Under the pieces are notes generated by a model. That model was not told the DNA's origin. It was given only the letters and a program-made list of their open reading frames with translations, and made no database searches. Shown here piece by piece: positions 1-18,300 of a DNA stretch of 22,903 nt. A program made the position numbers and the translations under genes. The first letter of the stretch is position 1. Each line of letters starts with the position of its first letter. Source of the DNA: a virus; the IMG/VR virus record IMGVR_UViG_3300020395_000115, positions 1 to 22,903 of that record. One strand, written 5' to 3'.

Positions 1-687
1 GAAAAGAAACTTAAGGACTATACAGTAGCATCTGTTACACCTGTAGTAGTGGATCCTTCTATACTATACATTGAATTGGATTCGACTATTAGTTACAAGT
101 CTGCTAAAACGACTTTGACTAAAGCAGAACTACAAACAAAGGCAATTTCTGCAGTTGAAGGATACATCTCACAGTCTGAGACTGAAAAGTTTAATGGTAA
201 GTTCCGTCATAGTAAGTATGCCTCTGTTATTGATAATGCTGATCAGTCATTCACATCTAATGTAACGAATGTTACACTTAGAAAGGATTTCTATCCTACA
301 CTCAACTCTACCTTCTATTATGAGATGTGTTACTTGAATCAATTCAAGGATTCATGTGATGCTTCTGTATTAAAGTCAACAGGTTTTATTGTTAGTGAGT
401 ACCCTGCTTTCACAGTATATTTGGAAGATGATACAAAGGGAAAAATCGACCTATATAGACTAAACCCTCTAACTGGTGAAAAGATATACCTGGTCAAGGG
501 TGTGGGTGATATTAATTACACCAAAGGTGAAATACAACTATACAATCTAACTGTTATTAAAGGTAGCTTCACAGATAATAAAATTGAACTACGAGTAGAA
601 CCTGCATCAAGAGATGTAGATGCTGTTCGTGAAGTCTATCTTGATATCGATATCTCTAAATCCAAATTCAGTGCGGTTGCAGAATGA
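1..687 (+). CDS. gp6: Baseplate wedge subunit gp6, C-terminal 228 residues (5' truncated)
   Basis: The frame is open from base 1 to the TGA at 685-687, so the gene begins upstream of the window; the GTG at 49 is internal. In T4, gp6 (about 660 residues) forms the dimeric ring that ties six wedges around the baseplate hub. The visible part has the expected character of the gp6 C-terminal region: a stretch FRHSKYASVIDNADQS followed by SNVTNVTLRKDF, the 'small number of conserved turns then TSN-T-V-LRKD' pattern seen in gp6 and Baseplate_J-like proteins, and then an all-beta end. No signal peptide or membrane segment is seen. Its stop overlaps the next start (ATGA at 684-687), implying coupled translation with the gp7-like gene. 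The family call rests on remembered motifs plus the gp7-gp8 context. Confidence 0.82.
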   Translation, partial: EKKLKDYTVASVTPVVVDPSILYIELDSTISYKSAKTTLTKAELQTKAISAVEGYISQSETEKFNGKFRHSKYASVIDNADQSFTSNVTNVTLRKDFYPTLNSTFYYEMCYLNQFKDSCDASVLKSTGFIVSEYPAFTVYLEDDTKGKIDLYRLNPLTGEKIYLVKGVGDINYTKGEIQLYNLTVIKGSFTDNKIELRVEPASRDVDAVREVYLDIDISKSKFSAVAE

Positions 688-3600
688 ATGTAAAGTCGAG
701 AAATATCTCATCGCTGATTGAGAGTCAGATCCCACAATTTATTGTGGGTGAGTATCCTTTCTTCGTTAAGTTCCTTGAGTCCTATTATGCTCAACAGGAA
801 CTTAGTGGTGGTGTTCTTGACATCGTAACAAATTTAACAGAATATCGTGATATCAATTTTTATAGTAAAGATATTCTAAAACAGTCCTCGAAAACCACTG
901 CAGTGACTGGGTTCTCGGATACTACTATTTCGGTTGATAGTACAGATGGATTTCCCGATGAAGGACTTGCTAAAGTTGGTGATGAGATCTTTTTCTATCA
1001 AAGCAAGACTGATACATCATTTACAGAAATTTCAAGAGGAGTTAGTGGTAACACCTCTCTAGGTAATCTTTATAGCACTAGTACATTTGTATCAACTGAT
1101 GCAAAGACACATGCTAGTGGATCAACAGTACATAATATTAGTAATCTGTTCTTATATGCTCTTATCCAGAGTTTTGAGTCAGAATATCTTGCTGGTGTAC
1201 CTGAGAAGTATCTACGTGGTGAAATTGATAAGAGAACTCTTATTAAGCATATTTCTTCTTTCTATAAAGCAAAGGGTACTAAGCGTTCTATTCAGTTCAT
1301 TTTCAATTCTTTAATTGCATCTGATGATACTGATGTATACTATCCAAAAGATATTACATTAAAGTCATCTGAGTCTGATTGGATTACAGATTATACCCTC
1401 AAAGTTATTGCAGTGCAAGGGAACCCAGAGGATCTAGTAGGTAAGACTATTGTACAGTCTGGTGATGTATATGCTTCTGCTGTAGTTGATAATGTAAGAA
1501 AAGCACAGAGTGTAGATGGTACACAAATATGGGAGTTGATAATTGCCCCATCTAGTATCAATAATGTTTTCAGTGTAAGTAATAAGACTAAGTTAACAAA
1601 GGCAATTGATAATACCGACCAAGTTGGATCAAAGATATATGTCGATTCTACATTTGGTTGGGATAAGGAAGGAACTATATTAATTGGTAGTGAAGTCATT
1701 ACGTATTCAAGTAAGACTATCAAGCAGTATACAATCAAGTCTAGAGTTTCTACACAGACTCATAATGTCGGTACTATAATATATGATAACAAAAAGATTG
1801 TATCAGGTGATGTTCAGATCCTTGCTCTAGGAGTCGTTTATAACTTATCACCTAAAGCAAATGTACCATATGGTATAGAAGGTGAAACAGTTGTAGTCGA
1901 AGACTCTGGTTTTGATACCATAGATTCTATTATTAAGAATCAATTGGGACAAGTGAGATGGGAAATGAGCGATTCCACTGCGGTCTCATCTGGCGATCCT
2001 AGGACTCTAAGTGAGAACACTGATACCATACCTGGTATTGCAGAGGTATTCTCTGATGAGAATAATTATTACTTCTGTACAAATGGATTCCCTAAGAGAA
2101 CTGTATATTACAATCAGACCATAAGTGCTGACACCACACCAGTATCACAGTCTTTACTTAGAACGATAAGAAAGACACCACTTACCACTACCGAGGTTTA
2201 TCAATCTCCTAGAAAGGATATTGGTATCATGGTTGATGGTACGTTAGCTTACAGTTATAAAGATACAGGTAGTGTGTTCTTTGGTAAGTTAACAAAGATC
2301 ACTGTTAACAATCAGGGTAGTGCATATACTAGAGCACCATTTGTTCTTGTTAACAACACAGCATATAAAGCAACTGCTAATATGTCTGGAAGTGTTGTAG
2401 AAACGATATCTATTAATGATACTAGTTCTTATACAGTTGCACCTACCATAGACATTGTATCTGGTAGAAATGCAGTACTTACACCCGTTGTTACTGGTGG
2501 TGCTATTACTAGTTTAGTTATTGCTGATGCTGGTGAATACTATTCAGCACCACCTACAATTAGAATAGTAGATAAATTGGGGAAAGGTCGATTTGCTGAG
2601 TTCACTGCTGAAGTGTCTGCTACTGGTCAAATAACCTCTACTACACCAATAAACACTGGTAGTTTCTATACAACAGAGAATGTTGTTATACAAATCATTC
2701 CAGCTGGTTCTGGTGCTACTGCTACTTCATCTATCTTCGAGTGGGTTAAAAATAGATATGCCTATGCTACAAAAGATACTGAATATGGTTTCTCCCACCT
2801 TAATGATCAAGGTTTCTATAATTATGGTGTTCTATCTTATTCACCTAGTCTCCAAACATCCTTAAGTGATGATGGAACTAATCATTCTCCTATCATAGGA
2901 TATGCCTATGATGGTAATCCAATCTATGGTCCTTATGGATACACTGATGCTGCTGATTCATCTACTGCTATCATTAAGATGACTAGTGGTTATATTTTGA
3001 GAACTGCTAGACCAAATGGTCCTTCAGTAGCAACATATCCTTTAGGGTCATTCATACAAGACTATTACTATGCTGATAGAACATCTACACTTGATAAAAA
3101 CAATGGTCGTTATTGTGTAACACCAGACTATCCTGATGGTGTCTATGCTTATTTCGTTACTTTAGATAGTACAGATGTACCAGTCTATCCATATATCATA
3201 GGTAAGAACTTCTATTCTCTACCTCTTGCTTCTAACTACGATCAGAATCAAACACAAAACGATATTCCAACTGATGCAGTTCGTTTAAGAACTACCACAA
3301 GTCCTAATAATGGATTACAGGTACGAGCAGTAACGAAAGATACAGCACCAGGCAGTATATCTAATTTTACTGTATTCTCATCATCCAATAATTTTAAAGT
3401 TGGTTCAGAACTCTTCTTAGATAATTCTGGTACTGGTGGTACAGAAGCTTCTGGTACAGTTGAATCTATTAAAGGTAAAGACATCATTGAGGTTAGAGCA
3501 ACTGATAAGCAGAGAGTAGCAAAAGTTCAACTTACAGAGAACTGCTATGTATTCTCTGGAGATACTCTCACACAACCTTCTAGCGGTGCTTATGGTACTG

Positions 3601-6600
3601 TTGTTGGCGATGTACTAGACGGTAAGATTCTTGTCTTACAGGACGTTGTAGGCAACTTTGACGATAGTGGAATATTTGATGCTACTACATTATCAATTAA
3701 CATGGTTCTCAACACAAATGCCACCTTCACAAAGGGTGCAACCGTTGAGTTGACTAATGGTACTGTTAATCAAACTAACCCACCATCTATATTAGCAACA
3801 GGTGAAGTAATAGAATCTACTGATAAGAGAAACTCTGTTAAGGTTAAGGTTCTATCTGGTACGTTTGTACAAACAACAGGATATTACTTAAGAAGTGATA
3901 ACTTACTTAATACTGTTGGTGCAGAGATACTATCAACTAAGAGTTTAAGTACTGGATTGGTTCCATTCCAAGTTAATACTAACATTGCATTGGTTAAGAC
4001 TGATGGTGACCATGAACTAGGAATAGGAGATAAGATTTTCATATCTATTGACCCTAATGATTCTATTACAACTACTACCAAGTATGTACAGTTAGGTGCT
4101 ATACAAGAAATAGATGTAGAACCACCTACCTACAAGTCTGCATTAAATGATGCTGGTATAGGAAGAGTAGACCTTCTCAATAGTGGTGCAGATTATACAT
4201 CCAATACCTATACAGACATAGAACTTACTGGTGGTAAAGGTACTGGTGCTAAGGCAACTGTACTAGTGGTCAATAGTATAGTACAGACTGTAACAATTAC
4301 TACAAAGGGATCTGGATATGAGAAAGGAGATGTCCTTACCGTTGCTGATGTTGACTTAGTACGTTCTGCTGCTTCGACTAATACCAATAGATTAAGAGTA
4401 CGTGTAGATCATATTGGTTTTGCTGCTGGTGAGACTACTTTAAATCTAGACAGTATATTTGGTTTAAGTAAGAATGATCTTCTTACCGTTGGAGAAGAAG
4501 TCGTTAAGATTACTGATATAGGATCCACTTCTGTAACTGTCACAAGGGCACAAGAAGGAACTACTGATTCTGATCATTTTGATAACGAAGCAGTCACATT
4601 ATACAATACAGATTATAGATTTACTGTAGGTGAGTCTATAGCAGTTACTGGTAATACAGCATTAGATCCAAAAGTTCTTTCCTTTGCTAATAATAAATTA
4701 ACAGTTGAGCATAATAATAGTTTCTTTAATCAAGGAGATTTTGCTCCCTATAAGGTAACTACCCAATCTACTTTATTTGATGAGTCAGATCCTAAAAGAA
4801 CTCTTAAGATAACTGCTGTTTCGGAATTCAAAATCGTAACAAAAATTTCAGATTCTGTGAATGGTCCTTATACCATATCTCCAAATATTAACATACAAGA
4901 GTTTTATCAGTATAGATTCGACCTAAGTCACTTTACTAATGATAAATCTGAATTTATTATATCACCAAGTAAGAATGATAATATCATCGCTCCAGAGGTA
5001 GTTAATGTTGGTACACCTGGTCAACCTGATTCATATGCATATGTTAAGTTTGGATATGGAGCTCGACTAGGGACAATTGATCTAACTGGCACACTCACTA
5101 AGAGAGTTCCTAGGAGATATCAGAGATACTATTACAAATCTGTTGTAAGAACTACTGCTAATGGAGATGCAGAAATTCGTATCGGTCCTTCTACGTCTAT
5201 TGTAGATAGTGATAGTTTCATGGAGATTATCAATGATCCTTTACAGGGAAGACAGATAATCACAGATGCGTTAACAACTTCTGGTGATTCACAAGGACAA
5301 GCAGTATCATTTGTTACATCAGATAGATTTGTATATGAGATGTCTCAAGTACCTGAATGGTATGGTACTGGTACTCAGAAGTATACATCAGAATCAAGAT
5401 CTGCTATTGGTGGTATTGATAATATTAAAGTAGCGAATCTTGGATCTGGATATAAGCAAGTTCCTATTGTTAAGGGATGTGAGTTACACCCTGCTTATTC
5501 TTCAACTGTAACTGCTGAATGGGATTCTGTTAATAACAATATTGTTGGTGTAATTGTTGATACACCAGGTTCTAATTATTCTAAACCAATAGTAGTTGTA
5601 TCTGATGGTAATGGTACAGAAGCAGAGTTTGAGGTATTAAAAACTGCTGATAATAAAGTTGCTAGAGTTACAGTAATCAATAAAGGTAAAAACTATACAT
5701 ACAAACCATCTCTTAAAGTTGTAGAAGGAGATTTGAGAGCATATGCTTTAGGTGATTCTATTGGTATCACTAAGAATGTAGAGATGGAATTTAATGGTGC
5801 TGGTATCTGGGATGATACGTCTACCATTAGGAGACATTCTTGTAGTGATGTTCTTATTGTAGATACGACAGATAATTTCTTAAATGGTGAGCAAGTTAAG
5901 CAAGGAAATTCTATAGGACATGTTGTTCCTAATGGTTGGAGACCAGGATCTAACATACTCAAGATATCTGTTAAATCTGGAGAGTTTGTTAGTGGTACAC
6001 CTGTACTAGGTATTGCAAGTAAAGCATCAGGAAGTGTTCTTAAAGTATTGAAGACAGAATTTGATGTTGATCTTAGATCATACTATGATAATCTAGGAAC
6101 CTTTACTTCAGATAAAGGTAAGGTAGGTGTAAGAACACATAAGATAGCAGATAATAATTTCTATCAAGACTATTCATATGTTGTTGAGTCTAAGACAGAT
6201 ATTAATAAGTGGAGAGACTTAATTAAGGAGTCTGTACACCCTGCTGGATTTAAGTTATTTGGTGAGTTAAATGTAGATTCAAACGCTGCTGTATCAATCA
6301 GTAATAATTCTAAAACTAATCAAGTATCAACATTAAAACTCTGGAATGAGGAGACTAACAAAGTTACTGTTGGTGATACTAAGAGATATCATCAAACTGT
6401 AGTTAATCTATCAGAGAATATCAATCTTATTAGAGGAACTGGTTCTTTCACTGAAAAATCTTCTGATACATCTGGTATTATTGCTAGAGAGATTAAGTTA
6501 ACTCCAGCATTTGATGGAGATTTTGATGCTAATGGTAATATCTCTGGTACTAGAGAGTTTACTATAGTAGATGCAGGTACAAATGCACCTATAACTCCAT

Positions 6601-9600
6601 ATAATGCTATGGCGTTGACTATAACACTGGATGGTATATTACAAGAACCAGAAGTTGCATATACTCTTGATGCTAACAAGATAACATTTGCGAAAGCACC
6701 ATTTGGTCCTAGAACAGATAACAACGCTACAACTAAAGCAACTAAGTTTGTTGGAAGGTTATTCCAATTCAAAGATGCGTCTCAAAATGCGACTTATTTG
6801 AAAAAGATAAGACAGATTTTCCAGAGAGAAGGTACATGGATAGATGCTGCTAACCAATTACGTTTCAACAGAACATTTATTCAAGAAGAAGCAATTGGAT
6901 ATGTTAAAGCAATGTATCCATCACTAACTTGGAATACATTAGAATCTAAGTGTATGCGTGATATTGGATTACTCGTAGATTCTTATGAGCATGATTTAAG
7001 ATTTGGTGGTAATGCATCCACTTATGATGCTGCTAAGAAATACTTCAATGATGGTTCCTTAGCATACATCGATGCCCAGTTAACAGAAAGTATAGCAGCA
7101 TACGAGTACACAATGAATTTATGTGTTGCTGCAGCAAGGAACTGGGATTTATCAATGAAGAACTGTATTGTAACACAGGGTACTAACACTATAACTGTAC
7201 CATCAACATTAGGTATATGCATTGGTATGAATGTAAGTACAGGTAGTCAGTTTGCACCAGACACTACTGTTACTGAAATACTAAGTCCAACATCAATTAG
7301 AGTTTCTAGGGATGCAGAACTATCATATGCTGGTCAAACGATTACCACATTAGTTACTAATACTGGTAATACCAGTTATGGTCCTACAGTGATATCATCT
7401 ACTGGTACTTTGAATATATCACCTAGTGCTACTACAACTATCTACTCTTCAATTAATAATATTGATGAGGTTACCTTCTCATTTGCTAGGACAAATACTG
7501 GTAAGTTTATGGATGCTGCTAGATTGATCAGGAAGAATAAGAAGTATATTCAAGAAGAATCTCTTGGTTGGGTAAAAGCAACATATCCAAATTTAGTTAT
7601 TCCTGATGAAGATAAGTGTGAGAGAGATACTGGATATCTTATAGATGCTTATGTTTATCATTTACAATATGGTGGTAACTTCAATGTAGTAGATTTTGCA
7701 GAAAGATATTATACTGGATATACACTTTCACATATTGCTAGTCAAAAAGCAGAAAGTATAGCAGCATTTAACAAAGCTAAAGACCTTATGGTCGTAGCAA
7801 TGAAGAATAACCTTGGTGCTGGTACATATACTGCAATATCACCATTCACAGATGCTATTCTTCCTGATCCACAGGGTGTTTTATACATGTGTGCTGAAGT
7901 AGAGCAGACATTGGATACTTACAATACTATCGTTGCTAATGTAATTAATAAAGGACCATACACCATCGAGAAAGTATCTGATAACAATCAGAGAAATGGT
8001 AATTGGACAACAATGCAAACATTTAGTAATATTAACATTCTTGCTAAGGAAGATGTATTTACTGAATGTGCTGATGTTGTTTCTGCACTCAATTCTTTAT
8101 TCCTAAACGTCAAAGAAATTCTCAATGGTAATAGTGCTACTAAGTCTTTACCAGATTATTTCAATGGTGATAATACAGACTTTGAATTGTATTACACAGA
8201 TAATACTCCTGTTAAAACATCAGTTAAACAGGATCTATTTGTTGGTATTAATGGTATCTTCCAGAATGCTAAGTATGATGAGACATTCCCTAGATTAAAT
8301 TCTTATTATATCAAGAGATCTGCTGGTGCTAGTGATCCTGATAGAATTGTATTTGCAGAACCACCTAAGTGGGAACAGAAAGCAAACACATTAACTGTTC
8401 AGGAACCTCTTGCTGTAGAGAAGTTCTTTGCACACAATGTTGGTGGATATAAGAGATTAATAATTCAAGGTGAGAACTTTAATGGATCTACTCTTGGTCC
8501 TTTTGTTATGAGAGATGAAGAAGTAAAAGATGTTGTTGTAGTTGATGACGATAGATTCGTATTAGTGTTCGTTGATGGTATTTTACAAGAAAGAACACGT
8601 GCTTATAGTATTAATGAATCTTCAATCACATTTACACAACCACCAAGAGAGGGACAAAGAGTTGATATAGTTCTTTTAGTTGGTATTTCTACAGATCAGA
8701 TATTAGATGGATATAATATCGAACCCAATAACTTTATGAATGAGGTAACTGTAAATGTTACTGGATTGGATTCAGCGTATGATTCATTCTCTAATACGAA
8801 AGATGGTCAGATAATATGGCAATTTACAGATAATACATATCCTACTCCTGATGAGTATACCACTATAGGTATGGTAAGAGGTCATGGATTAGTATCTGGT
8901 GGTTGGGAATTTATTATGAGTGCTCAGAATCCTGATATAGATTTCACCAAACCTCTAAGAATTGCTGCTAACACTGACTATATAAATGCTTCTTACATTG
9001 AAGTAGATTTATCTACTGCTACTACTTCTGTAACATATGCTACAGAAGATGGTAGAAGAGTGATGAAGAAAGATACTGCTGGATGGTTATATGCTTCTGC
9101 ACGTCCTAATATGACTAATGTAGAACCAGGTGATAAGATTATTATTGATGGAGAAACTGATTACAGGACTGTTAAGAAGGTTCCTAGTAGAGTCAATCCA
9201 TTAGATTATGTTCCTGATACTCAAGCATCTAGTGCCAGTGTTGGAACTGTCACAGTCAGTAATTATAATGGTCTCTCAAGAGGAGAGGGATTGGATGTGA
9301 AAGCAGTATTGACTGGAGATGTTGTTACTTCCTTAACGTGGAATAAGAGAGATCTTAGTAGGAATCCAGATGCTTATCAATATGATACCCCACCAGTACT
9401 TAGTATTGAACCAGTTAATGATAATGGTGGAGGTGCTAAGGCACATGTTGTAGTTGATGGTGGTGAAGTTATTGATGTTATTCTTACTTCGGGTGGTAGT
9501 GGATATACTGCTATACCTACAGTTAATGTATCACGTGGATATAAGATTATAAAAGGTCATAGACAATTTGATAGTAAGTATACCAAATACATTGAACATA

Positions 9601-10415
9601 TTGTTACTGGTACTAATACTTTATCTACTGCATCGTCTGTAGGTGAAGCAACACGGTTGGCGTATGAGTTTAGTCATAGTGTCGCTGCTGTTTCCTCACA
9701 AAATAATGTACTTGAAGTAACTCAACAGTTGCTTAGGAATGTTTCTGCACCAGCTATTACACAGGAGATTGTACTTCAACCGAAGGAAAGTAATGTTAGT
9801 AATAACATTGTTTCTATATTATCAACTCCTGGTAACACAGTTAAGCAGATAAAGACTTCTGCATTAGCATCTTCTACTCAAGAGACCAAGTTGACTTCAC
9901 CATCATTAGCACCTGCTATGACTATGGTAAGTACTTTTGATAGTAAGAAGGCAGATTTACTTGACGTGGATCTTAATTGGGGTGATGCATATGTAATGGT
10001 TCCATCTACTACTGGATTTGATCCTAGTGGTAGTTTACAAGTTGGAGAATACTACATAGAATATTCATCCAAATTATCTGATCGTTTCGTTATTAGATAC
10101 AATGCAGCAGTAGTAACTGCAACTATTGCTACTACTGGTACTGGATATCCTAATTCAGGAACTGCGGCATGTACTGGTGGTGATGGATCAGGATTACAAG
10201 TAAGTTATACAGCAGTAAGTGGTGCTCTGGTTTCAGTCTCCATTTCTAATGCTGGACTAGATTATAACGCAGGTAACGTAGTTACAGTTACTGGTGGTAC
10301 TATTAGTGCTACTTTAACTATTACTGATGTTGTTACCAATAGCACCTCCACAAGAGGAGTTGCTTCTGTTGCTCCAGCAACAATTTCCGCAGGAACACTA
10401 GTTAGACAAGTATAA
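684..10415 (+). CDS. gp7: Giant gp7-like baseplate wedge protein (3243 aa) with YHYH-like and repeated modules
   Basis: T4 gp7 (about 1032 aa) is the wedge initiator that binds gp10, gp8 and gp6. Residues 1-300 here match, from memory, the T4 gp7 C-terminal region: an F-KFLE-YY helix, a KR-L-KHISSFYKAKGTKRS segment (about 186-205) and an EDLVGKTI segment before a beta stretch. The downstream gp7 element, a YSYVVESK strand then W-DLIKESVHPAGF, appears only at about 1828-1856. Between lie VDST-GF modules (about 82, 320, 1256), GSGY-type modules, a YHYH-like motif at 739-753 (GYAYDGNPIYGPYGY) and SGTF/SGEF modules (1058, 1765). After it come DGILQ-like modules (1983, 2523, 2631), a duplicated helical domain (2054-2153 and 2277-2376), a GGSGY module (2937) and a fourth VDST-GF-like module (3106). 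The N-terminal half of T4 gp7 is not recognisable. The ATG at 684 overlaps the gp6 stop; no Shine-Dalgarno is seen. Alternative name: YHYH-domain virion structural protein. Confidence 0.8.
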   Translation: MNVKSRNISSLIESQIPQFIVGEYPFFVKFLESYYAQQELSGGVLDIVTNLTEYRDINFYSKDILKQSSKTTAVTGFSDTTISVDSTDGFPDEGLAKVGDEIFFYQSKTDTSFTEISRGVSGNTSLGNLYSTSTFVSTDAKTHASGSTVHNISNLFLYALIQSFESEYLAGVPEKYLRGEIDKRTLIKHISSFYKAKGTKRSIQFIFNSLIASDDTDVYYPKDITLKSSESDWITDYTLKVIAVQGNPEDLVGKTIVQSGDVYASAVVDNVRKAQSVDGTQIWELIIAPSSINNVFSVSNKTKLTKAIDNTDQVGSKIYVDSTFGWDKEGTILIGSEVITYSSKTIKQYTIKSRVSTQTHNVGTIIYDNKKIVSGDVQILALGVVYNLSPKANVPYGIEGETVVVEDSGFDTIDSIIKNQLGQVRWEMSDSTAVSSGDPRTLSENTDTIPGIAEVFSDENNYYFCTNGFPKRTVYYNQTISADTTPVSQSLLRTIRKTPLTTTEVYQSPRKDIGIMVDGTLAYSYKDTGSVFFGKLTKITVNNQGSAYTRAPFVLVNNTAYKATANMSGSVVETISINDTSSYTVAPTIDIVSGRNAVLTPVVTGGAITSLVIADAGEYYSAPPTIRIVDKLGKGRFAEFTAEVSATGQITSTTPINTGSFYTTENVVIQIIPAGSGATATSSIFEWVKNRYAYATKDTEYGFSHLNDQGFYNYGVLSYSPSLQTSLSDDGTNHSPIIGYAYDGNPIYGPYGYTDAADSSTAIIKMTSGYILRTARPNGPSVATYPLGSFIQDYYYADRTSTLDKNNGRYCVTPDYPDGVYAYFVTLDSTDVPVYPYIIGKNFYSLPLASNYDQNQTQNDIPTDAVRLRTTTSPNNGLQVRAVTKDTAPGSISNFTVFSSSNNFKVGSELFLDNSGTGGTEASGTVESIKGKDIIEVRATDKQRVAKVQLTENCYVFSGDTLTQPSSGAYGTVVGDVLDGKILVLQDVVGNFDDSGIFDATTLSINMVLNTNATFTKGATVELTNGTVNQTNPPSILATGEVIESTDKRNSVKVKVLSGTFVQTTGYYLRSDNLLNTVGAEILSTKSLSTGLVPFQVNTNIALVKTDGDHELGIGDKIFISIDPNDSITTTTKYVQLGAIQEIDVEPPTYKSALNDAGIGRVDLLNSGADYTSNTYTDIELTGGKGTGAKATVLVVNSIVQTVTITTKGSGYEKGDVLTVADVDLVRSAASTNTNRLRVRVDHIGFAAGETTLNLDSIFGLSKNDLLTVGEEVVKITDIGSTSVTVTRAQEGTTDSDHFDNEAVTLYNTDYRFTVGESIAVTGNTALDPKVLSFANNKLTVEHNNSFFNQGDFAPYKVTTQSTLFDESDPKRTLKITAVSEFKIVTKISDSVNGPYTISPNINIQEFYQYRFDLSHFTNDKSEFIISPSKNDNIIAPEVVNVGTPGQPDSYAYVKFGYGARLGTIDLTGTLTKRVPRRYQRYYYKSVVRTTANGDAEIRIGPSTSIVDSDSFMEIINDPLQGRQIITDALTTSGDSQGQAVSFVTSDRFVYEMSQVPEWYGTGTQKYTSESRSAIGGIDNIKVANLGSGYKQVPIVKGCELHPAYSSTVTAEWDSVNNNIVGVIVDTPGSNYSKPIVVVSDGNGTEAEFEVLKTADNKVARVTVINKGKNYTYKPSLKVVEGDLRAYALGDSIGITKNVEMEFNGAGIWDDTSTIRRHSCSDVLIVDTTDNFLNGEQVKQGNSIGHVVPNGWRPGSNILKISVKSGEFVSGTPVLGIASKASGSVLKVLKTEFDVDLRSYYDNLGTFTSDKGKVGVRTHKIADNNFYQDYSYVVESKTDINKWRDLIKESVHPAGFKLFGELNVDSNAAVSISNNSKTNQVSTLKLWNEETNKVTVGDTKRYHQTVVNLSENINLIRGTGSFTEKSSDTSGIIAREIKLTPAFDGDFDANGNISGTREFTIVDAGTNAPITPYNAMALTITLDGILQEPEVAYTLDANKITFAKAPFGPRTDNNATTKATKFVGRLFQFKDASQNATYLKKIRQIFQREGTWIDAANQLRFNRTFIQEEAIGYVKAMYPSLTWNTLESKCMRDIGLLVDSYEHDLRFGGNASTYDAAKKYFNDGSLAYIDAQLTESIAAYEYTMNLCVAAARNWDLSMKNCIVTQGTNTITVPSTLGICIGMNVSTGSQFAPDTTVTEILSPTSIRVSRDAELSYAGQTITTLVTNTGNTSYGPTVISSTGTLNISPSATTTIYSSINNIDEVTFSFARTNTGKFMDAARLIRKNKKYIQEESLGWVKATYPNLVIPDEDKCERDTGYLIDAYVYHLQYGGNFNVVDFAERYYTGYTLSHIASQKAESIAAFNKAKDLMVVAMKNNLGAGTYTAISPFTDAILPDPQGVLYMCAEVEQTLDTYNTIVANVINKGPYTIEKVSDNNQRNGNWTTMQTFSNINILAKEDVFTECADVVSALNSLFLNVKEILNGNSATKSLPDYFNGDNTDFELYYTDNTPVKTSVKQDLFVGINGIFQNAKYDETFPRLNSYYIKRSAGASDPDRIVFAEPPKWEQKANTLTVQEPLAVEKFFAHNVGGYKRLIIQGENFNGSTLGPFVMRDEEVKDVVVVDDDRFVLVFVDGILQERTRAYSINESSITFTQPPREGQRVDIVLLVGISTDQILDGYNIEPNNFMNEVTVNVTGLDSAYDSFSNTKDGQIIWQFTDNTYPTPDEYTTIGMVRGHGLVSGGWEFIMSAQNPDIDFTKPLRIAANTDYINASYIEVDLSTATTSVTYATEDGRRVMKKDTAGWLYASARPNMTNVEPGDKIIIDGETDYRTVKKVPSRVNPLDYVPDTQASSASVGTVTVSNYNGLSRGEGLDVKAVLTGDVVTSLTWNKRDLSRNPDAYQYDTPPVLSIEPVNDNGGGAKAHVVVDGGEVIDVILTSGGSGYTAIPTVNVSRGYKIIKGHRQFDSKYTKYIEHIVTGTNTLSTASSVGEATRLAYEFSHSVAAVSSQNNVLEVTQQLLRNVSAPAITQEIVLQPKESNVSNNIVSILSTPGNTVKQIKTSALASSTQETKLTSPSLAPAMTMVSTFDSKKADLLDVDLNWGDAYVMVPSTTGFDPSGSLQVGEYYIEYSSKLSDRFVIRYNAAVVTATIATTGTGYPNSGTAACTGGDGSGLQVSYTAVSGALVSVSISNAGLDYNAGNVVTVTGGTISATLTITDVVTNSTSTRGVASVAPATISAGTLVRQV
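731..748 (+). other. Perfect 7-bp hairpin at the start of the gp7-like gene
   Basis: CCCACAA (731-737) and TTGTGGG (742-748) are perfect reverse complements around the loop TTTA. The hairpin sits 47 bases after the start codon, inside the reading frame (residues 16-22). No T tract follows, so it is not a rho-independent terminator. It could slow ribosomes or mark an mRNA processing point just after the gp6/gp7 junction; chance is also possible. Confidence 0.4.
2898..2942 (+). other. YHYH-like motif in the gp7-like protein
   Basis: These codons (residues 739-753) encode GYAYDGNPIYGPYGY, the signature block of the YHYH protein family, which is usually found in secreted or surface proteins. Flanking residues fit the domain: an HSPIIGYAYDG lead-in before it, and FIQDYYYADRTSTLDKNNGR followed by Y-VTPDYPDGVYAYFVT at about 792-830. 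The domain lies inside the large insertion that separates the two gp7-like segments. Its role in phage virions is not known; a surface-exposed binding or folding role is inference. Confidence 0.75.
6843..7142 (+). repeat. Helical domain duplication, copy 1 (residues 2054-2153)
   Basis: This 100-residue, mostly helical block starts DAANQLRFNRTFIQEE and ends near VAAARN. It aligns to copy 2 with one single-residue gap in each and about 44 identical residues by hand count. Shared anchors are DAA, IQEE, G-VKA-YP, KC-RD-G-L-D-Y, GGN and ESIAA. The two copies are separated by about 120 residues that include a beta module of the form GTNTITV-STLGICIGM. Function unknown; similar blocks recur in marine T4-like structural proteins as I recall. 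Confidence 0.85.
7512..7811 (+). repeat. Helical domain duplication, copy 2 (residues 2277-2376)
   Basis: This is the second copy of the domain, starting DAARLIRKNKKYIQEE and ending near VVAMKNN. The copies differ at over half of the residues and have no long identical DNA tracts, so the duplication is old rather than an assembly artefact. It lies between the first and second DGILQ-type modules. Confidence 0.85.
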
Positions 10416-10465: not shown

Positions 10466-12292
10466 ATGTCGGCAATCATATCAGAAAAGTTTCGCATTTT
10501 TAATGCACAACAGTTTCTAGAATCACTCACTGAAGGTGCTAATGACACCAGTGCAGATCGATCTCGTATGTACTTCTTCGTTGGTCGTTCGGATCAATGG
10601 GATTCATATTTAGAGATCTATAATCCTAATGCTACAGCATTTAATGTAGGGGATGAGGTGTATGATGCTGGTGCTGCTGGTGCTACTGCATATGGATCTA
10701 CGACATGGAAGGCAACTGTGCGTAAGGTTAATCCAGGATCACTATTAGTACACAGTCCATCCCCTGCTGCTGGTACTCCGACTGCTGGTAATGTAATTAA
10801 GGGTTATGCTAGTGCTGCCGACACTGGTGCTGAGGCTGTAGGTGGTGTGTATCGTATTGCCGATGAAACGAATGCACCAGCTCCACTGGACAACCAGACA
10901 GAGAAGTTCAAAGTTTATGAAGAACTGATTGCTGCAAAAAGGGTAGAGTCATCTAATGTTATAACAGTAGTTCCTCGTTACAACTGGAACACAGTTACTA
11001 ACCCTAAGTTCGACATGTACAAGCCTGACTACAGTGCTGCACCTGCTTCAGGTGGTACTGCAAAGCAGACTGCTACAGGACAGAACACACTTAGTGCTGC
11101 TAAGTTCTATGTAATGAACAGCAACTACGAAGTATTCAAGTGTCTTTACAATAAGGAAGATACAGTTTCTGGTGGTGCTAATGCATCTGATATGCCTACC
11201 ACAGCAAACAACTATGTTAGTGGAGTATACACAGGACCTAACGATGGATATCGTTGGAAGTATCTCTATACAATGACCACTCAGCAAGTTATGGATTTCC
11301 TATCCAGTGACTTCATGCCTGTTGGTACATATGCTGGACCTGCTGCTGTAGACGGTGCTATTGATACAGCACTCATCTCAAGTGCTGGTAGTGGACTACC
11401 TGCTAACAAGACTGGTGCTTCTTCACTCTATGCTCCTATATTAGGAGATGGAACTGGTGGTAAGGTTAAGATTGAAACAGATGGTTCTGGTGCAATCACC
11501 TCTGCTGTTATTCAAGCTGCTGGTACAGGATATACCTACGGTACAGTTGCATTAGTAACTGGTACAGGTACTGGTGCTGGTGGAGATGCTTATGGTCTAT
11601 TCTCTGATGATACCCTAGGTACATCTGAGACCATTGCTGGATCTGCTCGTGGATCACTTGAAATTATCATTCCTCCTGCTGGTGGACATGGTGCTAATTT
11701 ATCCAATGAGCTTAACGGCAAACGCATTATGGTCAACGTACGTTTGACCTATGCTGAAGGACAAGGTGATTTCCCTGTTGATAATGACTTCCGTAGAATC
11801 GGAATTATTAAGGATCCACTACAGTTTGGATCATCAAATTATGCTACTGCAAACACACTTTCTGGTGTCTATGCTGTAAGAGTAACAGGAACTGGTCTTA
11901 CTAGTTCTTCTTTCGGAAAAGATAATCAAATTTCACAGACTGTAACTGGTGGAACTGCTAAGGGAACCGTTGTTTCTTGGAAACTAGACGATTCAAGCAC
12001 TACAACTGGTGTTCTTAAATACTTCCAGTCACCTGAATCACATACAGACAGTGGTATTGTAAGAGCATTTGCTTCTGATGCATCTAATGCTATTACTGAT
12101 GCTGGTACATCTGTATCTGTTAATGTTAATACATCATATGCTTCAACCCTTGAAGGTGTAACATTTGCAAGCGGTTTGGCGAATCCTGAGATCAAATCTA
12201 ATTCTGGAGAACTCGTATACATAGAGAACAGGAGACTGATTACGAGAGCTGCTGACCAAATAGAGGACATCAAGCTAGTAATCGAATTCTAA
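10466..12292 (+). CDS. gp8: Baseplate wedge subunit gp8 (608 aa, enlarged)
   Basis: gp8 is a dimeric wedge protein that joins the gp7/gp10 complex during baseplate assembly. T4 gp8 is 334 residues, and its landmarks can be followed through this longer protein. They are: an N-terminal SEKFRIFNAQQFLESL helix then YFFVGRSDQW; RYNWNT from 171; NDGYRWKYLY (259-268), like GDGYVWEYLF in T4; FRRIGIIKDPL (442-452), like FRQISIITNPL; and the last residues SGELVYIENRR...DQIEDIKLVIEF, nearly the T4 ending SGEMIYMENR...DQTEEINILFTF. Extra material sits at about 52-130, 295-380 and 465-575; the second insert carries GTGY at 353-356. The ATG at 10466 follows a late promoter; no Shine-Dalgarno is visible. 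Confidence 0.93.
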   Translation: MSAIISEKFRIFNAQQFLESLTEGANDTSADRSRMYFFVGRSDQWDSYLEIYNPNATAFNVGDEVYDAGAAGATAYGSTTWKATVRKVNPGSLLVHSPSPAAGTPTAGNVIKGYASAADTGAEAVGGVYRIADETNAPAPLDNQTEKFKVYEELIAAKRVESSNVITVVPRYNWNTVTNPKFDMYKPDYSAAPASGGTAKQTATGQNTLSAAKFYVMNSNYEVFKCLYNKEDTVSGGANASDMPTTANNYVSGVYTGPNDGYRWKYLYTMTTQQVMDFLSSDFMPVGTYAGPAAVDGAIDTALISSAGSGLPANKTGASSLYAPILGDGTGGKVKIETDGSGAITSAVIQAAGTGYTYGTVALVTGTGTGAGGDAYGLFSDDTLGTSETIAGSARGSLEIIIPPAGGHGANLSNELNGKRIMVNVRLTYAEGQGDFPVDNDFRRIGIIKDPLQFGSSNYATANTLSGVYAVRVTGTGLTSSSFGKDNQISQTVTGGTAKGTVVSWKLDDSSTTTGVLKYFQSPESHTDSGIVRAFASDASNAITDAGTSVSVNVNTSYASTLEGVTFASGLANPEIKSNSGELVYIENRRLITRAADQIEDIKLVIEF

Positions 12293-12317: not shown

Positions 12318-15300
12318 ATGCCACAAAAGACGAACCTAAACGTATCACCATATTATGACGACTATGATGCGTCTAAGAATTTTTATCGAATTCTTTTTCG
12401 CCCTGGATACTCGATACAAGCCAGAGAATTAACACAGTTACAATCTGTTCTTCAGAATCAGATTGAATCTATAGGACGTTATTCCTTCAAACAGGGTGAT
12501 ATGGTCATCCCTGGTGAAGTTGGACTGAACAATAGATTAGACTATGTTAAACTATCATCTGTTACAGAAGTTGCTGTAACGGAAGGAGATAATATTGTCT
12601 TCAAGAAATATGATATAGCATTACTAAAAGGTCAGACTTTAAAAGGCATCACTTCTGGCGTTACAGGTACTGTTGTTTCTACTCGTTATGCAACTACTAC
12701 ATCATCAGATACTGTTTACGTTAACTACACAAGCAGTGGAAATTCAAGTGATGAAGCAACTTTTAGACAAGGGGAAACTCTAGAGGTTGTAGATGGTGTT
12801 AATACACCTTTATTGGTCGTTGGAACGGACGGTAGCGTACTTCCAACTACTGTTACGTTAAAAGACCCAGATACAGGGGTAGAGACCTCTTACAACAGCC
12901 CTGCGATGGGTTTTGCTTCTGGTGTACAAGTAGAGCAAGGTATTTACTTCGTTAATGGACATTTTGTAAGAAATGAAGAAGAACTTCTTGTCCTAGAACC
13001 TTTCATTAATATTCCATCTGCTAAAGTTGGATTTAAGATCTCAGAGTCTTTAATCACTCCTGAAGAGGATTCAACACTCTATGATCAAGCAAGAGGATTT
13101 GCAAACTTCTCAGCACCTGGTGCTCATAGACTATCTGTATCATTAGGACTTATCAAGTATGATTTAGATGCGTCTACAGATAGTAATTTTATACAACTTC
13201 TTAGTGTTAAGAAGGGTGCTGTACAGAAAAAGATTACAGCAGCAAATTATAGTGTAATCGAAGAAACATTAGCAAGAAGAACTTATGATGAATCTGGTGA
13301 TTATGTTGTAGAAGATTTTTCAACTGATATACGTGAATACTATCAGACTGGTGGTAATAGAGGAGTCTATGCTAAGAATGTAACTACTGGTTTGGTTAAT
13401 GGCGAAGCAGAAGTTGATGCTTTGCAAAAGATGGTTGCAACTATAGGACCAGGTAAGGCATACATTAAAGGTTTTGAAATTGTTAACAAAGAAAGTTCTT
13501 ATGTAGATCTTAATAAATCACGTGAAAGTCTTGAGAGAGATAATATTACTCTTAAACATGGTGGTCTTAGTAGTTTTTACTTAACAAATACTTATAATAC
13601 TATTCCTCTAAATGCATTTGGTGCAGATCTTTCTACCTATCCAACACTGTTTCTTAACGGTGTATTTGGTGACGGATCACTTGGTCAAAATAATACAGAA
13701 CCTGCTACAGATGGTCTTGGAGCAAATGGTGAAATTGATGGACATAAACAGACACGCTCTAGAAGAACTAGTACATTTGATTCCGATCAAGCAGTTAAGA
13801 CTCTTATCGTAGATATTCTAGGTACAGCACCACACAATTTTGCAAGTATTACTAATTCTAACTGGGAAGCAAACATTGGTACATTAGCAGTTAGAACATC
13901 AGGATCAGGTAATGATGCAGAAGAACTAACTGTTCTTTCTTATTCTAAGTTTCATGGTGGAGATGCTCAATGGCCTAAGTCTTTCTTAGGAGCACCATCA
14001 TACATCGAGATTACTGTACTTGGTAGAAGAGATGTTATCGATTCCTTGAAGGAATATGATGATAATGATGGTAATGGTATGAGTGGAGTTACTAAAATGA
14101 CTCGTCTCTTCTGTGCAGAAGGTGCAGCAAGTGCTAAGACTAATGCAGAGAATGCTAATGATGCTGGTGTTGCTTCTGATCCTCCTGGACTTTGGGGCAG
14201 AGTAGTTTCATATAGTGATACTATTGTTCCTATTGTTGGACTTGCTAAACCAAAAAACTTCTCTTTAGAAGAAAGAGGAATTGGATTTAACGTAGATTCT
14301 GATAAGATTCTATCAAAGGGCAGACTTGGAAGTACAGATGCATACAATACGACTTTCAAGATGTCGTATTTCAATCCAACATTCTTAACTCAAATTAAGA
14401 TTGATACTGTAATTGCAGATGGTACATTCCAAGCTGGTTATTATATTACTGGATCTAAGAGTAAGGCATATGCTGTAGTTGAGGGATCTCCTAATGGAAG
14501 ATTGTCTGCTGGTAATAGATTATTTGTAAAGGTTCTTTCAGGAACATTTGTAGAAGGTGAAACTATCATCGATGAAGATGGTAATACATTAAGAATTGCT
14601 AGAGAGAATACTATATCACACTTTGTTGTTGATATTAGAGGTAATGGTTATGGTGGTTTGTGTACTGTTACAGTTGATGGTGTAACATATGATCCTACTG
14701 TTTTACTTCCTGATGTTGCAGATACTGATACCATTTACAAGATTAGTATTTTAGATAGAAGTTTGTTGGGTGATACATATGCTCAACCACCTTCAGTTGT
14801 AATCGCTGCTCCAAATGCATCTGTTTCTACAGTTGCACAGGCACGTGCAGTTCTCTTTAAGAATGTTATTCAAACATACACCCCACAGAATGTTAAATCT
14901 ATGTGGGCAAGGTTTGGTGTAGCACCTTCAGGAGGTGTAGCACCTAACATCTTCACTTCTGATGTAGAACTTTCAAGAGATGCTTACCTCACAAGTGCGA
15001 ATGTTACAGACTTTACATGGAGTGGTACTGAGGGTAATTCTTATCTTGAGTGTACTGGATTTGGGGCAGATGCTTCTTCTCTTCTTGTACAAGGAGATCT
15101 AGTACAATTCTCCGATACAAATAACAATCTTGTTAAAGCAATTGTTCAACAGGCTACTAAACCAGAAGGAGCTAAGAAATCAAGAATATATCTCGATTCT
15201 TTATTACCTTCTAGCGTAAGTAGTACATCTGTACTAAGAGTAAGACCAAAGATAGAGAATTCTTCTAAGTCTTCTTTGATCTTCCCTACAGGATCAAAAC

Positions 15301-18300
15301 AAATTAAATCACTTGTTAAAGGAACTGATGATACCGCAATTACTTTTAATTCTAGACGAGACTTCATACTGGATTCTAGCTCTGCTGGTGGTAAGATTAC
15401 ATTTAAGGCAAATCTTGAGTATGGTACTCAAAAGTTCGTTGCCTTTACTGAGAAAAATTTCCTTCTCACCATTCACAATAAGGGTAATGCTACCCAGATT
15501 GAGACAGGAGACATTGTTTATATCCCAACTGATGCTGTTTCAGTAGTAAGTTCAGTTGATGCTTCTAGTGGATTAACTGCTGGTAGTGTTAGTATAGAAC
15601 TACCTGATAACTATTTTGGTGCTTTAAGTGGTGGTACTGAATATCCTACACTTAAATTATCTGCAACTCTAGAGTTAACTAAGGCAAGACCTAGGTTAAA
15701 AACAGTTGTTAAGGATAAGAAGATTGTTATTAACCCTGCAAAGGATAATATTATTCCTTTAAGAGGACAAGATCAAGAAGCATCTGAAATCAAGACTGTT
15801 TCTTATTCAGATGTCTTTAAAATCAATTACATATATGAAGGATCTACTACTGCTGCTCCAACAATTGATAGTGCTGGTAATCTAGTTAGTGGTACTGATG
15901 TTACTAATAGATTTACGTTTGATGATGGACAAAGAGATACTTTGTATGATGTATCTCGTATTATAATCAAACCAGGTTTTGATTTACCTGTAGGACAACT
16001 TTTAGTATCATTTAATTACTTTGATCATTCACAAGGAGATTTCTGTACAGTAGATTCATATCTACATGAGTCTGGTGTTGCTGCTAATGAGATACCTACG
16101 TTCAACTCATCTGTATTTGGTGTTACTAACCTTAGAGATGTTATCGACTTCCGTCCAAAGGTAGATACTAATGCTACTATTACTGGATTTGAAAACCAGT
16201 CTATATTTAAGAATTCAACATTTAATAATTTCACTGGAGATGGTGGTGTAGTATCAAGTTGTCCAGCATCTGATACCAATCTTCCATTTACTATTTCATT
16301 CTATCAGAGTCAGTATTTAGATCGTATAGATGGTTTATTCTTAACTAAAAAGGGTGAGTTTATAGTCAAGGAAGGAAACCCATCTCTTAACCCATCAAGA
16401 CCTGAGACAATAGAAGATGCTATTGCCTTAGCTTACTTGTACATACCTGCTTACACAACAGATGCTTCTGATGTAAGAGTTGTTCCTGTTGATAACAAGC
16501 GTTACACAATGCGTGATATTGGTAGGATTGAAAAACGTGTTGAAAGGTTGGAATACTACACACTTCTTAGTGTTCTTGAACAGCAAGCATTCAATATGCA
16601 GATCAAGGATGAAGTTGGATATGAAAGATTCAAGAGTGGATTTGCTGTAGATAACTTTGAGACTCATAAGTTAGGTAATCTCAAGTCTATCGACTATGCA
16701 TGTTCTATTGATACTAAACAGTCTGTATTGAGAGCACAGTCTAAAGAAGATTCGTTTGATCTTATAGAAGTCAATACAAAAGAAGATGAAAGAGTAGTTG
16801 CTGGATATCAAAGATCTGGTGATGTTATAACTCTTCCATATTCTGAGCTCAAGATGCTCGACAACCCATTTGCAACTAAGACTATTAACCCAAATCCATT
16901 TGTGGTTATTCAGTACGTTGGAGATGCAAGTTTAGATGCTCCTGTTGATTCTTGGTATGAGGATACAGACGCACCTTTAATATCAGATAATAATACACAA
17001 CTCTATACCATATTCCTTGCTAAGGATAATGTACGTGAAGCATATTCTAGTTTGTACAACAATTATGCTATCAATTGGGTTGGATCTAATGATACCTTCT
17101 TTAATATTGGACCTCTTTCTGATATTAACTCAGATCAGGTATTCTCTACAGTTAAGATTGCTAATGTAGGTAGTTCTTCTAATATCAGTCCTCAGAATAA
17201 TGAGACTGGTAAAGGAATTGCTACAAAAGTAGTTGGTGATGCATCTGTTGCTACTTCTATGCAGCAGTTTGTTAGATCTAAAGCAGTTAAATTTACTATT
17301 ACTAGGTTGAAACCAAACACTAGGGTATTTCCTTTCATGGAAGGAAGGGATATTAGTAGATGGTGCAACCCCGATCTAAGATATACAGGAAAACCAGGAA
17401 ACTCATTATCAACATTCGGTGCATCTATTGTTACTGATGATGGTGGTAATGCTAGTGGACTTATTATAATACCTAATGGATATGCTCCTACACAAGGAAG
17501 TACTTGGAACAACTATCTCTATAACACAAATTATGATACCAGTTCTGAACAATTACAATTCACGACAGGTGAAAAAACAATTAGATTTACTTCGAGTTCT
17601 ACAGATAGTAATAAAGACAATGTAGAAACATATACTGAAGTTAAATATTACCCTGCAGGTCTTCTACCTACTGTTTCAAGTAGTATTGTTTCAACATTAC
17701 CTGCATTCCTTAAATCTAATGAAGGAGTTCAGTTAGTTGCTTCTCAAAATGAGAAGAGACCTAATCCTCTTGCTCAAACATTTAAGGTTGAAGGATATGA
17801 AGGTGGTGTATTTGTTACTGGATTAAATCTCTACTTTAATAAAAAGTCAAGTTCTATTCCTGTAAGAACATACTTAACAGATACTGTTAGTGGTAAACCT
17901 GGAAAGCATATTGTTCCTGGTACTGAGAGATCTCTTTCACCAAAAACATATCTTAAGGTATTTGTGTCTCAAGAGACTAATATTGAGATTGCAGAATTAG
18001 CATCAGGTATACAATCTGGAGCATCAGGTCCAGTATCTAAAGTATTTGATAAGACTGGTATTGAGGTACTTCCTGGAAATGCTAATAGAATACCTCTTTC
18101 TGCTGATCAGGTATACACACTTGTTCTTTCAAATAACAATGGAACAGCATTTACTGCTGGAGAAACCCTAATACTTCCATCTATAGTTCTTGCTAATGCT
18201 ACTAATAATACTAACATTACACTTACTATTGCTAAGGATTCTGGTAAAATAATAGACCTTAAAGTTATTGGTGCTGGTACTGGATATGATACAGCAACGA

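Follow-up and report, generated by a model that had tools for sequence, protein, structure and literature searches.

The closest described counterparts of the protein examined here are gp7 of phage T4, the initiator of the baseplate wedge (PDB 5IV5, 5HX2), which is reported to contact gp8, gp9 and gp10 (PMC3004832), and gp7 of the Klebsiella phage KP1 (PDB 9F4A). In Vibrio phage XM1, the gp7 ortholog gp17, reported at 242 amino acids (aa) in all, holds tail spikes by means of its C-terminus and a loop at residues 80-106 that interrupts domain I (PMC10457771), and in Anabaena phage A-1(L) an insertion domain of the gp6-type wedge protein gp31B is described as reaching out and holding the long fibre (PMC10966104). 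For cyanophages, gp7 has been listed in the non-cyanophage core with divergent copies of such functions being expected (PMC3037559), and in 2020 it was said to be absent and substituted by VrlC (PMC7029224). We analysed a 22,903-base virus record of an ocean cyanophage (IMGVR_UViG_3300020395_000115; the whole record is called the window) and found that its 3,243-aa open reading frame (ORF) at 684..10415 on the + strand is almost certainly a gp7. Its core of about 285 residues (helices, domain V barrel and HPxGF closing part) is shown by comparison to be homologous to T4 gp7 residues ~645-892, and is interrupted at two fixed points. The window protein resembles T4 and KP1 gp7 (645-892) in this core, in the domain V barrel and in its position between gp6 and gp8, whereas T4-type proteins have ~640 residues before the core and no insertion at either point when compared with a hidden Markov model (HMM) of the core. 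The Pfam models for domain V, domain VI and the helical domain (Gp7_5th, Gp7_6th, Gp7_helical) match T4 gp7, whereas the Pfam scan gave no match to them at E 0.1 in the window ORF. XM1 gp17, which is likened to the window protein by description, differs in that separate tail spikes are held by short loops, and the A-1(L) insertion differs in being 100 residues long and in lying in the other wedge protein.

The ORF sits in the gp7 slot. It is preceded by the C-terminal end of a gp6-type baseplate wedge protein (1..687, +, open at the window start; PF21871 Gp6_C-III, E 3.7e-7; phrog_219, E 4.4e-56) and followed by a gp8-type wedge protein of 608 aa (10466..12292, +; PF09215, E 1.1e-9; phrog_438, E 1e-155), which completes the gp6-gp7-gp8 order. 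This gp8 compares with 334 aa in T4, and its PF09215 match is confined to the last 34 residues. A gp7-family gene directly follows gp6 in T4 (1,032 aa), phiM12 (1,007 aa), OC (631 aa), Sf-CH11 (3,275 aa), MED4-213 (4,458 aa), S-SCSM1 (4,120 aa), P-SSM4 (7,312 aa) and S-PM2, where a 3,048-aa 'hypothetical protein' is assigned to gp7 by its match to the second core part (segment B, below) and by position only; the S-ShM2 protein from the same slot has about 6,200 aa and is cut by the locus end. The P-SSM4 gene (L114:5426-27364) takes up about 12% of the phage genome. Small ORFs lie between gp7 and gp8 in Sf-CH11 and S-PM2 (one each) and in S-SCSM1 (two), and the gene after P-SSM4 gp7 is annotated gp9. 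The window ORF also matches phrog_4406, 'virion structural protein', across residues 3-3136, and Pfam PF23786 Baseplate_wedge with 35.4 bits against a cut-off of 27, in two stretches of which the best covers residues 1-223. A Phycobilisome Pfam match in the window fell below its cut-off and was not used.

The core was delimited with an HMM of 289 positions made from eight natural gp7s of 400-631 aa (OC, L011, L015, L016, L017, L019, L040 and L048), chosen because the region resembling residues 1-300 of the window protein continues without a break into the YYQEYSYV...HPAG end. The 80 viral contigs among whose ORFs such contiguous-core proteins were seen had been collected with OC gp7 as query. 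Such minimal gp7s (Ochrobactrum phage OC, Desulfovibrio phage 7757, and IMG/VR L015-L020, L040 and L048; 400-631 aa) have the core in one piece, and differ from the window protein in being without insertion and in having ~100-350 residues after the core. With this HMM, the window ORF gave three separate matches in collinear order (full E 4e-43), from which the following segments, all on the + strand, were drawn. Core segment A1 comprises N-terminal helices (residues 4-67, 693..884; HMM positions 3-66, independent E-value (iE) 1.8e-11). It is followed by the site-1 insertion (residues 68-159, 885..1160; excess 96 by HMM), a beta module reading 'TTISVDSTDGFP...GDEIFFYQSK'. Core segment A2 (residues 160-305, 1161..1598; HMM positions 63-191 at residues 160-288, iE 2e-19) holds helices with KGTKRS and then the first part of the domain V barrel (EDLVGKTI), its right boundary having been set by eye with an accuracy of about 20 residues. 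The site-2 insertion spans about residues 306-1799 (1599..6080; excess 1,474 aa by HMM), after which core segment B (residues 1800-1870, 6081..6293; HMM positions 188-285 at residues 1759-1864, iE 1.2e-16) provides the end of the domain V region and the NNFYQDYSYVV...VHPAGFKLFGE part. The remainder is a C-terminal extension (residues 1871-3243, 6294..10412). Thus N-terminal helices, a KGTxxS region, domain V and an HPxGF end, the core feature of the broad gp7 family, are all present. An earlier note on this DNA, made without database searches, had taken the ORF for a gp7-like wedge protein whose single core is split by about 1,500 residues, and the collinear HMM pieces, the PF23786 match, the gene order and the excess of ~1,474 bear this out; the profile comparison that it proposed finds gp7 with A and B separately. 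Its quoted motifs are present in T4 order, and its figure of about 1,380 residues after the second segment agrees with the 1,379 counted past the last core match at residue 1864. The site-1 insertion (68-159, excess ~96) was missing from it.

The connection to T4 gp7 is seen best with the minimal proteins. The core HMM matched T4 gp7 at 646-757 (iE 5e-11) and weakly at 848-890 (iE 0.07), and the gp7s of IME13 and EC-F2 in one piece (634-880 and 645-890); the remaining T4-type gp7s are matched in A and, in B, weakly at most. A second profile, A5, made from the same minimal proteins with L018 (one residue different) in place of L017, was run against 177,635 distinct PDB sequences, of which three reached E 10: T4 gp7 (9e-8), KP1 gp7 (4e-7, one stretch, 10-281 on 649-892) and a molecule called P22 in 8h2i (0.13), so that below E 0.1 only gp7 was found. 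In hhalign comparisons, the minimal gp7 profile aligned to the T4-type profile with a probability of 98.0% (E 1.8e-13, 8-283 on 645-892), and the window-family A and B aligned to the minimal gp7s with 99.7% and 99.0%. The motifs KFLESYY (29), KGTKRS (197), EDLVGKTI (249), YSYVV (1830) and VHPAGF (1851) of the window protein occur in the same order as the T4 counterparts KGIEAS (738), EDLVGQTI (779), YYVMKI (861) and VHPVGF (883), with the last gap being far larger in the window. Residues 1-700 of the window ORF matched 480 of 50,697 phage records by tblastn, 457 of them named Synechococcus, Prochlorococcus or Cyanophage, and the annotations among the matches listed include 'structural protein', 'hypothetical protein', 'baseplate wedge initiator' and 'gp7'. 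The only PDB matches of the whole ORF by phmmer were of peroxiredoxin type, near residues 1688-1768 (best E 0.008); other evidence does not back them, and they were taken as chance.

The two insertion points were found to be shared. An HMM-based count of the excess residues at both sites in 68 gp7 proteins gave a site-2 excess of 0 in the eight minimal proteins, IME13 and EC-F2, 85 in the freshwater Synechococcus phage BUCT-ZZ01, 150 in Stenotrophomonas phage YB07 and Acidovorax phage ACP17, 225-335 in 36 of 50 IMG/VR rows, 706 in phiM12, 1,463-1,493 in six window-like contigs (window 1,474), 1,475 in Sf-CH11, 2,128 in S-SCSM1, 2,234 in MED4-213, 2,625 in S-ShM2 and 2,691 in P-SSM4; for T4, Aeh1, F86 and P4-3 only A was retained by the chaining. 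Site 1 shows an excess of 93-106 in the window-like rows, Sf-CH11, MED4-213 and S-SCSM1, and of 604-609 in S-ShM2 and P-SSM4, in which the site-1 module is split in turn; no site-1 gap appeared in the other rows of this set. Site 2 is therefore very probably common to the family, which spans 400 aa (L040) to 7,312 aa (P-SSM4). The gp7s of P-SSM4, S-ShM2, MED4-213, S-SCSM1 and Sf-CH11 use both sites and have A, the YHYH block and B in the window order; they differ in size (site 2 1,475-2,691, site 1 93-609) and in having several beta-module matches out of order. Sinorhizobium phage phiM12 gp7 has its 706 residues at the same site as the window, and differs in being without the site-1 insertion and in giving no Pfam YHYH match at E 1. 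A tree of the core from 64 of the 68 proteins (L009, L010, L013 and L100 were omitted because their cover was low) places the large-insert proteins together with three long-branch rows that have small inserts (support 83) and with the 225-335 class, to which L065 was joined (94); its base is without resolution and long branches meet, so that it fits one insert gain as well as several.

Among the gp7s examined, about 630-750 residues before the core were found only in the six T4-type proteins. In OC, the Desulfovibrio phage, phiM12, the cyanophages and most IMG/VR gp7s the core lies at the start or within about 35 residues of it (residue 4 in the window ORF, in which the T4-type N-terminal half of ~640 residues is not present), and L073 and L085, whose core starts at residue 145 after 144 others, show that some non-T4 gp7s have their own N-terminal addition. 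Since only the T4-types have the long N-terminus and the XM1 ortholog is reported at 242 aa (PMC10457771), a gain in the T4 line would be simpler than loss elsewhere, and the proposal of the earlier note that the T4 N-terminal half had been lost is not upheld.

Whether the separated segments form one domain was addressed with a predicted structure of a relative, L027 gp7 (529 aa, 229-residue excess; 42 aligned sequences), as the window protein exceeds the 1200-aa folding limit. The L027 model has a mean predicted local distance difference test (pLDDT) score of 75.7 and a predicted TM-score (pTM) of 0.54, with residues 130-455 mostly above 90 and some blocks at 69-86. Foldseek returned 363 PDB matches, of which three reached E 0.001 (5iv5_BJ, 9f4a_A0 and 5hx2_A); all three are T4-type baseplate entries with chains of gp7 length, T4 and KP1 gp7 being named in the PDB profile scan. 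In the refined alignment (VIA), the model aligned to KP1 gp7 (9f4a) with Z 11.0 over 89 residues at a root mean square deviation (rmsd) of 2.8 A, to T4 gp7 (5iv5, chain 763-851) with Z 10.6 over 88 residues at 3.0 A, and to 5hx2 with Z 8.8 over 79 residues at 2.4 A; the next row, unrelated, had Z 6.2. Because the 89 residues between 130 and 458 of the model align to 763-853 of the KP1 chain, residues spread over 329 positions match about 90 consecutive chain residues, and as the last aligned residue, 458, is within SGIVSYPGKYIDTKGWLS, the core just past the insert, the alignment crosses the insert. T4 gp7 766-861 is gp7 domain V by Pfam, and in the predicted model the L027 insert lies in a loop of this domain. 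The packing of both segments into one domain, which the earlier note had put forward as a check, is thus supported in this relative and may hold for the window protein.

Several points weigh against the reading of a T4-homologous core folded around an insert. The helical ends of the L027 model (1-128 and 460-529) have pLDDT values mostly under 60 and its pTM is only 0.54, the Foldseek TM-scores are low (0.13-0.14 by query), and VIA outputs the first and last aligned residues and gives no tally of those past the insert. Packing was examined in a stand-in with a 229-residue insert. Direct hhalign of the window family against the T4-type profile is weak at 0.8-62% (A1 alone 0.8%, A and A2 15-30%, B 37-51%, and the maximum of 62% for a 150-residue window including B), so the case for homology between the window and T4 rests on the bridging relatives. 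Even so, the seven windows that score best in both sliding scans fall without exception on A or B, and at collinear T4 positions (702-755, then 818-892). Finally, L065 and L100 show no site-2 gap in the excess count; the B match that the HMM search gives for both was lost in the chaining, and L065 was then labelled 0 in the tree.

The site-2 insert includes beta modules and a degenerate YHYH domain, as the earlier note had also suggested for beta modules and a YHYH-like domain. 'GSGY'-type beta modules at residues 528-690 (2265..2753, +) were modelled by AlphaFold2, with most of residues 1-160 of the piece at a pLDDT above 90, and a further copy of the site-1 beta module stands where the insert begins (residues 315-373; 17.9 bits, shuffles at most 5.1). 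A phrog of gp8 also matches insert residues 1150-1221, so gp8 and the gp7 insert share a beta module. PF14240 YHYH covers residues 682-830 (2727..3173, +; E 4.7e-29, 102.2 bits against a cut-off of 25) without the name-giving histidines. Among the best 80 of 589 confirmed stretches in a scan with the YHYH block, a sample that favours close relatives, core A precedes the block within one ORF in all 80 and core B follows it in 51, the order never being violated; of those without B, 28 continue past the edge of the locus, and in L124 a stop codon stands 3 bases from the end of the contig. No PDB sequence matched the YHYH piece at E 1, and its model had no Foldseek match at E 0.001; its best VIA score (Z 5.1, 69 residues, 2.3 A) is to the T4 sheath protein gp18 through the beta modules, and because the YHYH part is poorly modelled by AlphaFold2, no fold is claimed for it.

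A duplicated domain V as the origin of the insert was considered, because core HMM positions ~186-230 often match on both sides of it, and was rejected. In the window insert, a domain V HMM detected no copy, exceeding 5 bits only at the true site (6.2), and the window-family module HMMs found none either. Elsewhere, the domain V HMM gave weak matches, against a maximum of 4.0 bits in 20 shuffled sets, at residues 6280-6316 of P-SSM4 gp7 (10.1 bits), over 18 positions of the phiM12 insert (7.9 bits) and in the 2,756-aa DUF4815 ORF that follows gp8 in the window (12318-20588; 17.0, 8.0 and 6.1 bits), the best being a module at residues 706-756 that resembles gp7 domain V. A domain V-like module outside gp7 was also seen in an ORF downstream of gp7 on three contigs (L029:7259-8593, L030:6490-8061 and L031:10120-11691), which matches core HMM positions 127-232 (full E about 2e-4). 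A Nol-like carbamoyltransferase gene (20796-22238) lies beyond the tail genes of the window. The C-terminal extension of gp7 contains two repeats of about 200 residues, near residues 2027-2213 and 2219-2430 (window 6762-7973, also DNA repeats D2 and D7), and blocks matching them are present in S-ShM2, P-SSM4 and MED4-213 gp7.

Two other accounts bear on the identity of the ORF. One holds that the ORF is a fusion of a gp7-like start with an unrelated later part, B being a chance match to a repeat motif; B is indeed short (~70 residues) and its direct match to T4-type gp7 is the weak 37-51% given above. However, B reaches 99.0% against the minimal family and iE 1.2e-16 with the HMM, follows A wherever both were chained in the excess count, and is contiguous with A in eight natural gp7s, IME13 and EC-F2, and so a fusion is contradicted by the present data and is most improbable. 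Equally improbable is that gp7 is truly absent from such phages and replaced by VrlC, as has been stated for pelagi- and cyanomyophages (PMC7029224). It agrees with our tblastn search with T4 gp7, in which no cyanophage was among the matches listed (best 60 of 1,434 records, E 0.01), but S-SCSM1, which carries a VrlC/virulence associated ORF, also has gp7 by profile and gene order, and S-PM2 has both as well, its gp7 being placed by the B match and position only.

For the insert itself, a role as a phage adhesin, in which YHYH and beta modules bind the host surface, set host range and make separate fibre genes unneeded, could draw on reports that YHYH domains are often fused to tail or baseplate proteins or to lectin-like domains (PMC7824862) and that T4 wac, g10, g11, g12, g34, g35 and g37 are not present in cyanomyoviruses (PMC2984593). 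A comparison of the window with Sf-CH11 also shows lower identity in the insert (34-50%) than in A and B (55-61%), but the C-terminal parts are lower still (27-39%, with only 41-75% of columns aligned). Across nine close relatives, mean pairwise identity is 80.5% for B, 76% for A1 and A2, 72% for YHYH and 64-71% for the other insert parts, so that the insert (64-72%) is almost as conserved as the core (76-81%); conservation is lowest at residues 2861-3100 of the C-terminal extension (54%), the other C-terminal parts being similar to the insert at 63-69%. In addition, long and short tail fibre proteins are reported as separate components of the virion in the related cyanophage S-CREM2 (PMC10665884). 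We therefore consider this role unlikely, and the suggestion of the earlier note that the insert gives new adhesins without separate fibre genes is doubtful. That the YHYH domain is a metal-dependent hydrolase helping to open the cell wall is very unlikely. Such an activity has been proposed for YHYH in general, with a histidine triad and an aspartate (PMC7824862), and D216 of our alignment is retained in all 44 phage rows and in two bacterial YHYH proteins from plasmids. However, within columns 150-344 the only histidine that is invariant in the 44 gp7 copies is H207 (window residue 734), and both bacterial proteins lack it, the next best column having histidine in 14 of 44; and the zinc hydrolase proposal is not supported for the gp7 copies because the bacterial AHxQPxGxYHYHG stretch is not kept in them. 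YAYF as the counterpart of YHYH was ruled out by comparison with the two bacterial proteins.

We thus regard a split-core gp7, with its inserts as a predicted side arm, as the probable explanation overall. In this arrangement, gp7 would be the single-copy subunit of a (gp6)2-gp7 wedge unit, its core forming the wedge and docking on gp6 as in T4. The insert would leave and re-enter the domain V barrel at neighbouring points and extend from the wedge as a side arm, for which the XM1 gp17 loop and C-terminus and the A-1(L) gp31B insertion domain are published precedents. More tentatively, the arm and the C-terminal extension may form a structural scaffold to which fibres dock, the arm being less a variable adhesin than a scaffold, and may stand in for some of the baseplate periphery for which T4 uses the gp7 N-terminal half and gp10-gp11-gp12; any host-specific contact would then more probably be made by the C-terminal extension, which is less conserved, than by the insert. 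The S-CREM2 virion is reported to contain ORF122, 'baseplate wedge protein, intermediate', with 91 unique peptides (PMC10665884), and this protein is assigned to the window gp7 by gene position. A wider idea, which at present seems on the unlikely side, is that the domain V loop serves as an evolutionary port of contractile tails into which 0 to ~2,700 residues have been plugged, equivalent to the spike-holding loop of XM1 gp17, and that marine cyanophage gp7 with its C-terminal extension replaces the gp10-gp11-gp12 periphery of T4 and couples host contact directly to the sheath trigger.

Some GenBank records already name such genes gp7 (those of P-SSM4, S-SM2 and P-HM1); of the split core and the shared insertion site no printed description was found in the literature searched (preprints, supplements and some subscription journals were outside its scope). 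T4-like cyanophages infect the main photosynthetic bacteria of the ocean, and g10, g11 and g12 are reported not to be present in them (PMC2984593). A protein that had been printed as absent (PMC7029224) and as part of the non-cyanophage core (PMC3037559) is found here to be present, with its core kept but split. One protein family thus ranges from 400 to 7,312 residues, grown in good part via insertions at fixed points, and the insert together with the extension offers a testable place where the missing T4-type periphery may have gone.

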